Assembly (NCBI GenBank): GCA_003695045.1
Contig: RFJB01000153.1
Coordinates: 1-10,571 of the forward strand
Length of the DNA stretch: 10,571 nucleotides
Reading direction: 5' to 3'
Source of the DNA: Candidatus Woesearchaeota archaeon
GTDB taxonomy: Archaea; Nanobdellota; Nanobdellia; Woesearchaeales; J091
Shown: piece by piece, positions 6,971-10,571 of the stretch
Layout of the letters: the number at the start of each line of letters is the position of its first letter
How positions within the stretch are numbered: the stretch's first letter is position 1
Program-made: the position numbers and the translations under genes
The notes under the pieces: generated by a model
Seen by the model: only the letters and a program-made list of their open reading frames with translations
Told to the model about the DNA's origin: nothing
Database searches by the model: none

Positions 6971-8458
6971 TTATATTACGGCTTTAAGTCCAAGCCCTTT
7001 CAGTCCTCTGAGGATCTCTTCTTCGTCGGTTTCTTCAGAAATTATTGTGAGCAGAGCCAGGTTCTTTCTCAGCCCGATGTTTGTTCCTTCAGGCGTTTCT
7101 ATGGGGCAGAGCCGGCCGAGGTGTGTTGCGTGCAGCTCTCTCGCTTCAAAGTTTTCCTGGCTTGCCGATAATGGGCTGACAACCCTCTGAAGGTGGGACA
7201 TTGTTTCAAGGAAGTTGAGGCGCTGTATCCTCTGGCTTATTCCTTTTCTGCCCCCAACCCATGAGCCGGTTGCCATTGAACTGTATATTCTCTGCGTGAG
7301 CAGCTTGTCTCTTATTACAACTTTTATTGACGGGAACTTCCCCCTTTTGACTATTCTCTGGAAGTTGTAAAGGAGGTCTCCGATGAGAACCTTGAGGTTG
7401 ACTCTGAACAGGTCTGCAAGGAGGTCTCCTGCAAGCTTTATTCTTTTGTTTGCGAAGTGGTCTTTGTCGTCTTCGGGCACAACACCATTCTCCACTGCGA
7501 TGTACTTCTTGACCATCTTGCAAAGGTTGTGTGCCTTGAATATCCTGTCTTCCGAGTCAGTTCCGAGGTGAGGCAGGAGGTACCTGTCTATTATCTCCTT
7601 CATTCTCTCTACTCTGATGTCCTTTGCCTGGGTTATTCCTATCCTCTTTGCTATCCAGTCAAGGGCTTCTTCTTCATTCTTTATGTCTCCATACTCAAAG
7701 AGGTTTATGAGAACTTCGTCGCTGGTCCCTTCAGGGCTGATGTGCTTCATTATCTCCTCGTCTTTCAGCATGCCGAGGGCTTTCAGAATAACGACGAGCG
7801 GAACTCTCTTGACTCTTGTGAAAGAAAGATAGAATATTCCGTCCTTCATCTTTTCAATCGTGTGCGGAATCTTGAAGGAGCCCCTTTCCGAGAAGAGTTT
7901 TCCTACGTATTCCGAGACGCCAACCGATGCCTTCTCAACCATGAACCTGTTGCTGGCAAGGTCTTCAATGTTGATGAGAACCTTCTCGGTGCCGTTGATT
8001 ATGAAATATCCGCCGAGGTCGTCGGGGTCTTCGCCGTGTTTGATGAGTTCTTCCCGTGAAAGTTTTGACAGGTGGCAGTACTTGCTCTTGAGCATTATTG
8101 GCAGGTCTGCTATCTGTGTTTTGAATGTCTCCCTCTGTATTCCGTTGATGTGCGCTGAAACTTCAATGAAGACAGGTGCTGCATATGTTATCTTTCTGAG
8201 GCGCGCCTCCATCGGGTATATGTCCCTTTTTGAGCCGTCTGCTTCTGTTATCTGCGGCTTCTCAACCCATATCTTGTCAAGTTTTATCTTGAACTCTTCG
8301 ATGTTGTGCGGTATTATCGTCGGCTCTATCTCCTTGTTTTCATCAATTATCTGCTGCAGCTCCCTTTCAACGAAGTTGTTGAACGACTGAATGCTTGACT
8401 CAACAAAAGAATGGTCTTCAAAGTATTTCTTAATGAGGACTCTTGCCTGCTTAACCAT
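6971..8458 (-). CDS. rpoB2: DNA-directed RNA polymerase subunit B'' (Rpo2N)
   Basis: A 495-residue N-terminal part of the split second-largest subunit, forming the protrusion and lobe and ending after the fork region. Visible conserved blocks are G-G-Y-F-I-I-N-G-T-E-K-V (lobe entry, about 149-160) and the C-terminal block with S-H-L-Q-R-V-V-S-P-L and H-L-G-R-L-C-P-I-E-T-P-E-G-T-N-I-G-L, equivalent to the bacterial rifampicin-region fork. A GTG in the same frame exists at 8467, but I chose the ATG at 8458. The sequence AGAGGTG sits just upstream with 6 bases between GGTG and ATG, and the GTG falls inside that Shine-Dalgarno. With the ATG the gene overlaps the rpoH end by 8 bases. Confidence 0.96.
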   Translation of the reverse strand: MVKQARVLIKKYFEDHSFVESSIQSFNNFVERELQQIIDENKEIEPTIIPHNIEEFKIKLDKIWVEKPQITEADGSKRDIYPMEARLRKITYAAPVFIEVSAHINGIQRETFKTQIADLPIMLKSKYCHLSKLSREELIKHGEDPDDLGGYFIINGTEKVLINIEDLASNRFMVEKASVGVSEYVGKLFSERGSFKIPHTIEKMKDGIFYLSFTRVKRVPLVVILKALGMLKDEEIMKHISPEGTSDEVLINLFEYGDIKNEEEALDWIAKRIGITQAKDIRVERMKEIIDRYLLPHLGTDSEDRIFKAHNLCKMVKKYIAVENGVVPEDDKDHFANKRIKLAGDLLADLFRVNLKVLIGDLLYNFQRIVKRGKFPSIKVVIRDKLLTQRIYSSMATGSWVGGRKGISQRIQRLNFLETMSHLQRVVSPLSASQENFEARELHATHLGRLCPIETPEGTNIGLRKNLALLTIISEETDEEEILRGLKGLGLKAVI

Positions 8459-8702
8459 TAACAACACCTCTGTAAGCGTAAGTGACTCCCGCAGTGGGGC
8501 TTTTGCGTTTTATCCTTATGATGTCTCCCGGCTTGACATCCATGCCTCTCAGCGCGGGATCAGATGCCAGAATGTTGGGCAGTTCGTACACGCTTATTCC
8601 GTGCTTCTCCAGAAGTTCTTTCTTTTCCTTCTCGCTCAGTTTCTTGTGTTCGGGTATCAGAGAATGTTTTATTGGTTCGGTATTCTTCTTTTTGGCTGCC
8701 AT
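8451..8702 (-). CDS. rpoH: DNA-directed RNA polymerase subunit H (Rpo5)
   Basis: An 83-residue protein matching archaeal Rpo5/RpoH, the counterpart of the C-terminal domain of eukaryotic Rpb5, located at the lower jaw of the enzyme. Motifs: H-S-L-I-P-E-H-K-K-L (13-22), L-L-E-K-H-G-I (30-36), L-P-x-I (41-44), D-P-A-L-R (48-52) and the signature K-P-G-D-I-I-R-I-K-R-K-S-P-T-A-G (57-72), then Y-R-G-V-V. A lysine-rich N-terminal extension precedes the domain. It is the first gene of the polymerase operon. No Shine-Dalgarno precedes the ATG, unlike the genes behind it, and a TATA-like box about 23 bases upstream would fit a leaderless message. It overlaps rpoB2 by 8 bases. Confidence 0.95.
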   Translation of the reverse strand: MAAKKKNTEPIKHSLIPEHKKLSEKEKKELLEKHGISVYELPNILASDPALRGMDVKPGDIIRIKRKSPTAGVTYAYRGVVNG

Positions 8703-8729: not shown

Positions 8730-8766
8730 CCGGTCTGGCAATGTGAGTATGATGGGCCGGACGGGA

Positions 8767-8779
8767 TTTTCGTCTTTTT
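8767..8779 (-). other. Very short non-canonical tRNA intron (13 nt), T-loop of tRNA-Lys, position 59/60
   Basis: The exon bases TTCG (8785-8782) pair perfectly with intron CGAA (8772-8769), stacking on the T-stem. The 3' bulge is AA|T (8768-8766). On the 5' side AA|A (8781-8779) leads into the short A-rich intron loop, so only the outer helix, the 3' bulge and the central helix of the BHB exist; there is no inner intron helix. Removal restores the T-loop TTCGAAT. The exact cut cannot be fixed by sequence alone because the flanks are runs of A, but the mature product is the same for neighbouring choices. Confidence 0.82.
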
Positions 8780-8819
8780 TTCGAACCCGCGACCACCTGA
8801 TTAAAAGTCAGGTGCTCTA

Positions 8820-8844
8820 TTGCTCAGGCATTGTTTTCTGCCTT
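8820..8844 (-). other. Non-canonical tRNA intron (25 nt), D-loop of tRNA-Lys, position 19/20
   Basis: The fold is a textbook bulge-helix-bulge. The central 4-bp helix joins exon GCTT (8850-8847) to intron GAGC (8825-8822), with one G-U pair. The 5' bulge is GG|A (8846-8844) and the 3' bulge AA|T (8821-8819), cut after the second base of each. The intron helix is AGGCA (8843-8839) with TGCCT (8830-8826), closing an 8-base loop. Archaeal splicing endonuclease recognises this shape. Removal restores G18-G19-T20-A21. Confidence 0.87.
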
Positions 8845-8872
8845 CCAAGCTGAGCTACCGGCCCACGAGCTT

Positions 8873-8897: not shown

Positions 8898-8899
8898 CA

Positions 8900-8973
8900 C
8901 GCCCTGGCCGGGATTCGAACCCGGGTCGAAGCCTCGACAGGGCTTCATGATAACCGGACTACACTACCAGGGC
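8900..8973 (-). tRNA. tRNA-Asp(GUC), intron-free
   Basis: The acceptor stem GCCCTGG (8973-8967) pairs with CCAGGGC (8907-8901), with G73 at 8900. The D-arm is of the GTGT...TCAT type usual for tRNA-Asp. The anticodon stem AAGCC/GGCTT encloses CTGTCGA, giving anticodon GUC. The T-arm is CCGGG-TTCGAAT-CCCGG. The encoded length is 74 nt with normal loops, so it is uninterrupted, unlike its two neighbours. CCA is not encoded. G34-U35-C36 and G73 fit the known Asp identity set. Confidence 0.97.
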
Positions 8974-8981
8974 ATTTGGGC

Positions 8982-9153: not shown

Positions 9154-9170
9154 GAGTCCCCGCTCCCGGA

Positions 9171-9204
9171 TTTTCCTGGCGTGCCCTTGCTCTGTGCGCA
9201 CCAT
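9171..9204 (-). other. Non-canonical tRNA intron (34 nt), T-loop of tRNA-Tyr, position 59/60
   Basis: The T-stem is the outer helix. The central helix is exon TTCA (9210-9207) with intron GGAA (9176-9173): three pairs plus an A-G mismatch. The 5' bulge is AG|A (9206-9204) and the 3' bulge AA|T (9172-9170). The inner intron helix TGGTG (9203-9199) pairs with CGCCA (9181-9177), with one U-G pair. Removal gives the T-loop TTCAAGT. The position and the 3' cut are the same as in the tRNA-Lys T-loop intron. Confidence 0.84.
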
Positions 9205-9226
9205 CTTGAACCGGGAACCTTTCGGT

Positions 9227-9282
9227 GACCGCTCGCTGTCTGCGGATCTTCCTGCTTCGTGTGAAGCGTGTCCTCGCAGAAT
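9227..9282 (-). other. Canonical-position tRNA intron (56 nt), anticodon loop of tRNA-Tyr, 37/38
   Basis: The central helix joins loop bases CTGT (9288-9285) to intron GCGG (9232-9229), with two G-U pairs. The 5' bulge is AG|A (9284-9282) and the 3' bulge TC|A (9228-9226), giving cuts exactly at 37/38. The intron body has a 6-bp stem TCTGCG/CGCAGA (9280-9275 with 9244-9239) and a terminal GCTTC/GAAGC hairpin. An unpaired stretch of about 6 bases separates that stem from the central helix on the 3' side, so this is a relaxed BHB. Confidence 0.85.
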
Positions 9283-9344
9283 CTACAGCCGAACGCTCTA
9301 CCATTGAGCTAAGCGGGGATTCAGAATTCGGAAATAAGCGTCTT

Positions 9345-9374: not shown

Positions 9375-10571
9375 TCACATCTCCGCAACAGGCCTGTTCG
9401 ACACTATGCTCTTAACGGCCTTTCCTGATGAGAATTCAACCACTGCAGGCGGCAATCTTATTCCGCCGACTATCTTTAATCTTGATTTTATCTTGTATGT
9501 TATGACCCTCTCCTCAAACGGGTCTAAGCTGGGAATCTTCCACTGAAGCCGCACGCCGAACTTGTCATTTTTTGTTATTTTTGTCGGAGCCAGCGTGCCT
9601 ATTTCGAACTCTTTTTCCAGCTCGGCAATTCTCGGGATGCGGTCTTTTACAGTTATGTCATTCACAACTCTCCCTGTTCTGTTTCTGACAAGGATCATTA
9701 TCTTGACCTCTGTCTCCTGGTCGTCTTTTCTTCCCTTTCTGACTCTTGTTGCCTTTTTCTCGGCAACGAGTGGAGGTCTGAATATGAAATATCCGAGGAC
9801 TATTACTATAAGTGAAACAATTCCCAGGGCAAGCGGTCTGTAGTTCTTGCTTATCGCGATAACTGCTGTTTCCTGGGGCACCAGGGTGAACTCCCATTCA
9901 TAGTACTTCTGGCCTTCCTCGTCTTTCAGTTCTGCCTTGGGGTTTGTTTTTGTGAATATTCTTTCAAAGAATCCGGTCTTAATCCTTACCTTGGCGCTGT
10001 TTTCCACATTGCCGTCGTTGGTAAGGGTTATGTACTCTCTTGATTTGAGAAATTCCTTTTCAGTTACTTCCTGCTTGTTTATGAAAGAGTATCCTGCAAC
10101 CTCGAAAGTAACGGCGTCTGCATGGACGGTGTACTCCTTATTGTTCTGGGTTGTGGTTGCGTATGCCTTTACCTTGGCCTTTGTTGGAGCGAGAAGGTCG
10201 TCAAGCTTCACAGTGAATGTCTGGACTTTTGTCTTCAAGGGCGGCAGGTTGGTTGTAAATTCCCGCGAGAACAGCTCCGAATCCACTCTCACTGTCATGT
10301 TTGTTATGTTGAGCGGATTTCTGTTTTCCAGTATGACTTTGACAGGAATCTCTTCTCTCGGGTCGACTCTCTCCGGCACTTCAAGCTTTACGCTGAAGCT
10401 GGGCAGGTATGTTTTTGGCATAACCACGCTGGGCCGTATGTACACTTTGAGGTATTCCCTCAGTGTCTGGCTCGACTTTTTGCCTCTTACCGCAAGCTCG
10501 ATGAGTTTCCAGCCGCTCTTCATGTGAGCAACCGGTTTAAGATACAGGTTGACTACTCCTTCCTGGCCGTC
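9375..10571 (-). CDS. Membrane-anchored protein with beta-sandwich repeats (partial, start off window)
   Basis: The C-terminal 398 residues of a protein whose frame stays open to the right edge, so the internal ATG at 10523 need not be the start. I do not recognise a named family. Visible parts: about residues 55-160 form a beta-rich segment with V-P-E-R-V-D-P-R-E-E-I-P-V-K-V-x-L-E-N-R-N-P-L-N, resembling the Ig-like NEW3/CARDB-type domains of archaeal surface proteins, with two N-x-T sequons near 88 and 91. A second beta-rich segment with L-T-N-D-G-N-V-E-N-S-A covers about 165-240. One membrane helix follows at about 247-264. After it comes a basic stretch (E-K-K-A-T-R-V-R-K-G-R-K) and a third, DUF11-like segment (about 285-385). 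The basic stretch suggests an outside N-terminal part and an inside C-terminal part. The gene is convergent with nothing; tRNA-Tyr follows in the same direction. Confidence 0.8.
   Translation of the reverse strand, partial: DGQEGVVNLYLKPVAHMKSGWKLIELAVRGKKSSQTLREYLKVYIRPSVVMPKTYLPSFSVKLEVPERVDPREEIPVKVILENRNPLNITNMTVRVDSELFSREFTTNLPPLKTKVQTFTVKLDDLLAPTKAKVKAYATTTQNNKEYTVHADAVTFEVAGYSFINKQEVTEKEFLKSREYITLTNDGNVENSAKVRIKTGFFERIFTKTNPKAELKDEEGQKYYEWEFTLVPQETAVIAISKNYRPLALGIVSLIVIVLGYFIFRPPLVAEKKATRVRKGRKDDQETEVKIMILVRNRTGRVVNDITVKDRIPRIAELEKEFEIGTLAPTKITKNDKFGVRLQWKIPSLDPFEERVITYKIKSRLKIVGGIRLPPAVVEFSSGKAVKSIVSNRPVAEM

Follow-up and report, generated by a model that had tools for sequence, protein, structure and literature searches.

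Introduction

Non-canonical tRNA introns, which lie away from the usual 37/38 site of the anticodon loop, are prominent in Thermoproteales and have also been reported from Nanoarchaeum, ARMAN, Korarchaeum, Thaumarchaeota, and Asgard archaea (PMC6379350, PMC4033280, PMC4090602, PMC8450103, PMC12397907, PMC11291895). Sites such as 20/21 and 59/60, and as many as three introns in a single tRNA, are already known (PMC4090602 among the sources). The gene considered here is a tRNA-Lys(UUU) gene interrupted in both its D-loop and its T-loop. It lies on a 10,571-nucleotide (nt) stretch of DNA from a Candidatus Woesearchaeota archaeon (contig RFJB01000153.1 of assembly GCA_003695045.1; order Woesearchaeales), and that whole stretch is referred to below as the window. 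A literature search at the level of titles and abstracts, with subscription literature mostly outside its reach, found no paper on the non-canonical tRNA introns of Woesearchaeota.

Published work links such introns to the architecture of the splicing endonuclease, EndA, in that non-canonical or relaxed tRNA introns accompany (alpha-beta)2 or epsilon2 enzymes equipped with a special loop. Efficient cutting of relaxed motifs is ascribed to (alpha-beta)2 and epsilon2 EndA only, the alpha4 and alpha'2 enzymes being narrow in specificity (PMC6379350, PMC4033280), and the alpha4 enzyme of the nanoarchaeon Nst1 is said to be able to cleave canonical introns only (PMC4033280). The rule has soft edges. 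For example, the alpha'2 enzyme of A. fulgidus removes a relaxed 37/38 intron from full-length pre-tRNA, and the (alpha-beta)2 enzyme of M. kandleri, which is without loops, slightly cuts a relaxed motif (PMC6379350).

Several described systems resemble the present locus in part. Thermoproteales carry two to three bulge-helix-bulge (BHB) introns per tRNA at non-canonical sites (Sugahara 2008, via PMC8450103 and PMC4090602); Crenarchaea, however, possess an (alpha-beta)2 EndA with a Crenarchaea-specific loop (CSL) (PMC6379350), whereas the one EndA found here is of the alpha type and lacks that insert. ARMAN-1 and ARMAN-2, which have an epsilon2 EndA, are likewise ultrasmall archaea with multiple-intron tRNAs and relaxed motifs, but the ARMAN-2 enzyme is a three-unit protein with an ARMAN-specific loop (ASL), unlike the single-unit enzyme of 177 amino acids (aa) described below (PMC4033280, PMC12397907). 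The initial annotation of this locus had named the multiple non-canonical introns of Thermoproteales and ARMAN as precedents, and both are on record (PMC8450103, PMC4090602, PMC4033280, PMC12397907). Korarchaeum cryptofilum also combines a single-gene EndA with non-canonical tRNA introns (PMC4033280), but the present EndA has no insert at the site compared. A multiple-intron tRNA is listed for a euryarchaeon, Methanothermobacter thermautotrophicus (PMC4033280). Since euryarchaeal EndA is as a rule alpha4 or alpha2 (PMC4090602), the latter may be an earlier exception to the published rule, although Methanothermobacter is listed as a single species (PMC4033280), in contrast to the order-wide pattern with D- and T-loop sites reported here. 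Finally, in three genomes of Asgard archaea, 92-95% of the tRNA genes bear introns, often at non-canonical sites, and some of these introns are missed by tRNAscan-SE; these archaea, unlike the present one, belong to another phylum (PMC11291895).

A tRNA-Lys(UUU) Gene with Introns in the D-Loop and the T-Loop

By far the best reading of the locus is that of a putative working tRNA-Lys(UUU) gene with two non-canonical introns of the BHB type (Table 1). Read on the minus strand, which the initial annotation did not give, the gene begins GGGCCGG TA GCTC A, and its three exons join to a 74-nt tRNA-Lys in which all four stems are completely paired (acceptor 7/7, D 4/4, anticodon 5/5, T 5/5). Its anticodon loop reads CTTTTAA, with anticodon TTT, which rules out a canonical 37/38 intron. 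The coordinates, the insert lengths of 25 and 13 nt, and the D- and T-loop sites initially proposed proved correct to the base; the same is true of the mature junctions (...CTTGG|TAGAG... in the D-loop and ...TTCGAA|TCCC... in the T-loop), of the free 37/38 site, and of the claim that exact removal of both inserts restores a standard tRNA-Lys.

Table 1. Features of the interrupted tRNA-Lys(UUU) gene and its neighbours; positions are those of the window.
Feature	Position	Strand	Basis
tRNA-Lys(UUU) precursor gene, 112 nt including discriminator A	8753..8864	minus	full cloverleaf once the two inserts are removed
Exon 1, 20 nt: acceptor 5' strand to G19	8845..8864	minus	sequence parse
D-loop intron, 25 nt, site 19/20 (G19 and U20)	8820..8844	minus	sequence parse, motif, fold
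Exon strand of D-arm central helix, GCUU, then bulge GG|A	8847..8850	minus	pairs with intron GAGC
Intron strand of D-arm central helix, GAGC, then bulge AA|U	8822..8825	minus	pairs with exon GCUU
Exon 2, 40 nt: U20 to A59, anticodon loop uninterrupted	8780..8819	minus	sequence parse
Anticodon TTT	8803..8805	minus	sequence parse
T-loop intron, 13 nt, site 59/60 (after A59)	8767..8779	minus	sequence parse, motif
Exon strand of T-arm central helix, UUCG, positions 54-57	8782..8785	minus	pairs with intron CGAA 8769-8772; in minimum-energy fold
Exon 3, 14 nt: U60 to discriminator A73	8753..8766	minus	sequence parse
tRNA-Asp(GUC), uninterrupted, directly upstream of tRNA-Lys	8899..8974	minus	ARAGORN; Rfam 61.8 bits
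Gene of RNA polymerase subunit H (Rpb5 C-terminal domain), immediately downstream	8451..8702	minus	Pfam PF01191, 86.3 bits
tRNA-Tyr(GUA), doubly interrupted: 56-nt anticodon-loop and 34-nt T-loop inserts	9157-9318	minus	sequence parse

Both inserts are framed by splice motifs. At the D-loop, the motif GCUU GG|A AGGCA...UGCCU GAGC AA|U comprises four central pairs, 3-nt bulges, and five inner pairs; it is a strict BHB except for an A14-A21 mismatch on the D-stem side, and the complete BHB first described there, with 3-nt bulges around a helix of four base pairs (bp), is therefore upheld by the pairing. The T-loop motif, UUCG AA|A AAAAGA CGAA AA|U, has four central pairs and the 3' bulge AA|U and is without an inner helix, so that the 5' bulge is merged into a 9-nt loop that contains the 5' splice site. 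Such an arrangement (4 bp, one 3-nt bulge, and the other bulge merged into a loop) is the relaxed, bulge-helix-loop form. The pairing of UUCG with CGAA, likewise proposed at the outset, is confirmed and also occurs in the minimum-energy fold of the precursor, which holds the T-arm motif. As a whole, the precursor folds with z = -5.5 relative to 200 shuffles, none of which (0/200) folds as well.

Interrupted tRNA-Lys(UUU) Genes Across the Order

Sixty genomes of the order, among them the source genome, were searched at the DNA level, and 58 yielded matches at E<=10; in a pattern search, 82 of 94 genomes had one or more matches, many of these being other tRNAs or chance. From 70 loci examined, 63 tRNA-Lys(UUU) genes were obtained, each from a different genome and the present gene among them; 53 were parsed by script and 10 read by hand, including that of G010, which replaced a poor script parse. 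The seven remaining loci (L143, L153, L155, L168, L170, L171, and L182, whose stretch ends at a contig end) yielded no tRNA-Lys(UUU). Introns interrupt 47 of the 63 genes, a proportion that is no unbiased frequency, since the loci were picked by similarity to the intron-bearing gene or by an unbroken CTTTTAA loop (among the matches listed).

At least two introns are present in 26 of these genes and three in 5. By site, the D-loop accounts for 27 introns, the T-loop for 30, and the anticodon loop for 16, with 4 more in the anticodon stem and 1 in the T-stem; with the present gene left out, a D-loop intron is found in 26 and a T-loop intron in 29 of the 62 parsed relatives. The combination of D- and T-loop introns seen here occurs in 10 of the 63 genes, the present one included. 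A T-loop intron alone is as common (10 genes), followed by a D-loop intron alone (7), while 4 genes each carry D-loop, anticodon-loop, and T-loop introns together, an anticodon-loop intron alone, or D-loop and anticodon-loop introns. Anticodon-loop and T-loop introns are joined in 3 genes and anticodon-stem and T-loop introns in 2, and single genes combine anticodon-loop with T-stem, D-loop with anticodon-stem, or D-loop, anticodon-stem, and T-loop introns. The other 16 genes have no intron. Read by eye, the anticodon-stem introns fall in the 5' strand and stand beside D- or T-loop introns in L038 (G052), L041 (G054), L043 (G008), and L179 (G085), and the anticodon-loop intron of L160 (G010) is accompanied by a T-stem intron at about 53/54, with CGCG/CGCG strands and bulges AG|A and AA|T. 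On a 40-row EndA tree, whose support (below 80 at 24 of the 37 inner branches) is too low for a reliable count of intron gains, the fewest intron changes among 29 labelled genomes are 10 for the D-loop, 8 for the T-loop, and 9 for the anticodon introns.

The helices that define the introns have been maintained while their letters changed. The D-loop central helix is fully paired in 25 of the 27 introns and three-quarters paired in the other 2, with the exon/intron strands GCCT/GGGC, GCCT/GGGT, GCCT/AGGC, GCTT/GAGC, GTCC/GGAT, and GTCC/GGAC. Its T-loop counterpart is fully paired in 22 of 30 introns and three-quarters paired in 8; the fully paired strands include TTCG/CGAA, TTCG/TGAA, TTCA/TGAA, and TTCA/TGGA, and in TCCG/AGGA the change at position 55 is compensated with one mismatch kept. 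Many of the central-helix changes are G-U steps. When the intron strands were dealt anew among the genomes, a control that ignores relatedness, the observed pairing was reached in 14 of 100,000 shuffles at each site. This co-variation of the 4-bp exon-intron helices argues for selected BHB motifs. Intron length ranges from 14 to 95 nt in the D-loop and from 13 to 83 nt in the T-loop, and interior sequences vary widely while the splice-motif strands recur; the constrained part is the splice motif, in keeping with introns that have to be excised. By manual count, at least two inner pairs beside the bulge are found in 23 of 27 D-loop introns versus 9 of 30 T-loop introns, indicating that the relaxed form is common at the T-loop.

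Gene Finders and Functional Status

ARAGORN, run on the window, reported the tRNA-Asp only and missed the tRNA-Lys(UUU) gene, for which Rfam gave no match at E<=1. A whole-genome Infernal run produced a partial match of 20.4 bits at the locus, under the cut-off of 29. The initial annotation had predicted that gene callers limited to anticodon-loop introns would miss the gene or score it as a pseudogene, and ARAGORN and Rfam did miss it in the form in which they were run; tRNAscan-SE 2.0, for its part, includes a search for BHB introns (PMC8450103). Only 21 tRNA matches pass the Rfam cut-off in the whole assembly (1.06 Mb, 159 contigs, completeness 83.8%), and weak partial tRNA-like matches with inserts elsewhere in the genome suggest that other tRNAs with introns may have gone undetected.

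A second, intact tRNA-Lys(UUU) had been named as the observation that would turn this locus into a decayed copy. It was looked for by DNA search, Infernal, and pattern search, and among the matches listed none was found in this 84%-complete assembly; the intact tRNA-Lys on another contig has the anticodon CTT, not UUU. In eight genes of the window, AAA is used 87 times and AAG 177 times. Were the tRNA-Lys(UUU) lost, none of the tRNAs found would match AAA, so the interrupted gene is, as judged from sequence, very likely functional, and decay is unlikely.

The Splicing Endonuclease and the RNA Ligase

One EndA gene was found in the source genome, with one PF02778 (N-terminal) and one PF01974 (catalytic) domain; the Sen15 profile PF09631 weakly matches the same C-terminal part. 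A single gene with one N-terminal and one C-terminal domain and about 180 aa fits the alpha4-type layout. Among solved chains (match E 3e-36), it comes closest to 3iey_A, which is the catalytic subunit of EndA from Nanoarchaeum equitans. Of 60 genomes searched with PF01974, 55 showed exactly one gene and 3 none; G034 gave two genes, and G036 two partial matches on different contigs. A search of 18 genomes at E<=10 added four weak matches (E 0.1-0.4) within frames of 336-847 aa. As positive controls, the same search recovered both the alpha subunit and the second subunit without catalytic residues from Thermofilum, along with a two-domain frame from a single Micrarchaeota record and another from a single Marsarchaeota record. 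Neither a second structural subunit nor a fused unit was found by these PF01974 searches (60 genomes; 18 at E<=10).

The CSL insert is present in 0 of 41 EndA rows (38 from genomes of the order and 3 from named loci). A 9-column insert occupies that site in the Thermofilum alpha control and is also seen in A. pernix 3p1z; going by the description in the Hirata review, it would be the CSL. With roles transferred by alignment, the bulge-binding residues comprise one Arg, 7 residues before the catalytic Lys, and a C-terminal partner Trp (the W in WFRP), the latter being kept in 40 of the 41 rows; the remaining row is cut by a contig end. The C-terminal part of RtcB was also identified in the source genome (212 bits; 156-aa open frame).

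Mechanism and Alternative Explanations

In the proposed mechanism, the precursor would fold at the D-loop and the T-loop into BHB-type motifs, EndA would release each intron by cutting at its two ends, and RtcB, the RNA ligase, would join the exons to yield a 74-nt tRNA reading AAA. Transcription, cleavage, ligation, and charging of this tRNA would follow the known archaeal pathway. That the locus is the cell's tRNA-Lys(UUU) gene, with BHB-type introns that are removed in this manner, appears highly probable. Because both introns break the elbow formed by the D-loop and T-loop, an enzyme that relies on the mature tRNA body, as in A. fulgidus at 37/38, would be hindered, and EndA more probably recognizes the local motif.

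Some observations weigh against this account. The D-arm BHB is absent from the minimum-energy fold, since intron UGAGC is able to pair with the D-stem strand GCUCA; the all-BHB structure is 4.4 kcal/mol less stable (-42.2 versus -46.6 kcal/mol). The statistical control on helix pairing is blind to kinship among the genomes, as noted above. The T-loop motif lacks an inner helix, and alpha-only EndA is reported to be poor on such relaxed motifs (PMC6379350, PMC4033280). A second UUU copy, itself interrupted or lying in an assembly gap, could also exist. The last point, together with the incompleteness of the assembly and the failure of ARAGORN, Rfam, and Infernal to recover the gene or to score it above threshold, would suit a decayed tRNA-Lys copy with an intact UUU gene elsewhere. 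Such decay is nonetheless very improbable, as all four stems are intact, BHB-type pairing lies at the exact insert sites, and no other UUU gene emerged from the assembly searches. That relatives hold the same insert sites with compensated pairing argues strongly against decay or assembly error, and both the pseudogene and the assembly-error readings were set aside on that ground. It is equally hard to credit that the introns are parts with a function of their own, such as small RNAs, beyond that of spacers: apart from the lengths reached in relatives (95 nt in the D-loop and 83 nt in the T-loop), nothing was found in its favour, whereas lengths and interiors vary widely around recurrent splice-motif strands, and the introns here measure 25 and 13 nt.

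The enzyme is a separate matter. The proposal that a homotetrameric EndA built of alpha subunits alone, devoid of both CSL and ASL, excises the multiple relaxed non-canonical introns of the order has about even odds. A less probable, though by no means negligible, explanation is that the introns are real and EndA is an ordinary, broad (alpha-beta)2 enzyme whose divergent beta subunit escaped the profile. The conserved C-terminal Trp would fit a hidden beta subunit, as the Hirata review assigns an Arg/Trp pair to (alpha-beta)2 and epsilon2 EndA and two arginines at the bulge-binding site to the alpha4 type, and the closest solved chain, 3iey_A, belongs to an enzyme that the same review describes as a heterotetramer. 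In addition, the EndA query finds the N. equitans beta chain, while those of A. pernix and P. aerophilum are unlisted at E<=0.001, showing that searches of this type can overlook a divergent beta. Against a hidden beta stand the single PF01974 gene in 55 of 60 genomes, the mere four weak additions at E<=10, and the recovery by that same search of the Thermofilum second subunit and of the two-domain Micrarchaeota and Marsarchaeota enzymes.

The gene itself is one of many in the order, and its kind is already known. In this DPANN order, D- and T-loop introns coexist with what is, to the extent of the searches, one short EndA, and the published link between such introns and loop-bearing enzymes can thereby be tested directly. 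If the alpha-only proposal is true, broad specificity would have arisen a further time by another route, e.g., an Arg/Trp bulge clamp on a single-gene enzyme, and the rule that alpha4 enzymes cut strict BHB motifs only would be contradicted.

Neighbouring Genes and Other Interrupted tRNAs

The tRNA-Lys(UUU) gene belongs to a tRNA cluster (Table 1), beside which a 398-aa open frame on the minus strand (9375-10571) runs off the end of the window; it matches no Pfam family at E<=0.001. T-loop inserts also occur in the neighbouring tRNA-Asp of relatives: the pattern was read in 40 of 54 related loci tried, and 26 of these 40 (e.g., L023, L024, L028, and L158) carry such an insert as judged by the pattern. 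Long inserts in G048 and G019 are regex artefacts and were counted as none.

The tRNA-Tyr(GUA) of the window is itself doubly interrupted. Its acceptor stem (7/7), anticodon stem (5/5), and T-stem (5/5) are fully paired, and it, too, was missed by ARAGORN and scored under threshold by Infernal (16.3 bits). At least two tRNA genes of the window, including the only Lys(UUU) found, have thus been missed by two finders, and caution is due when tRNAs are reported as missing from such archaea.
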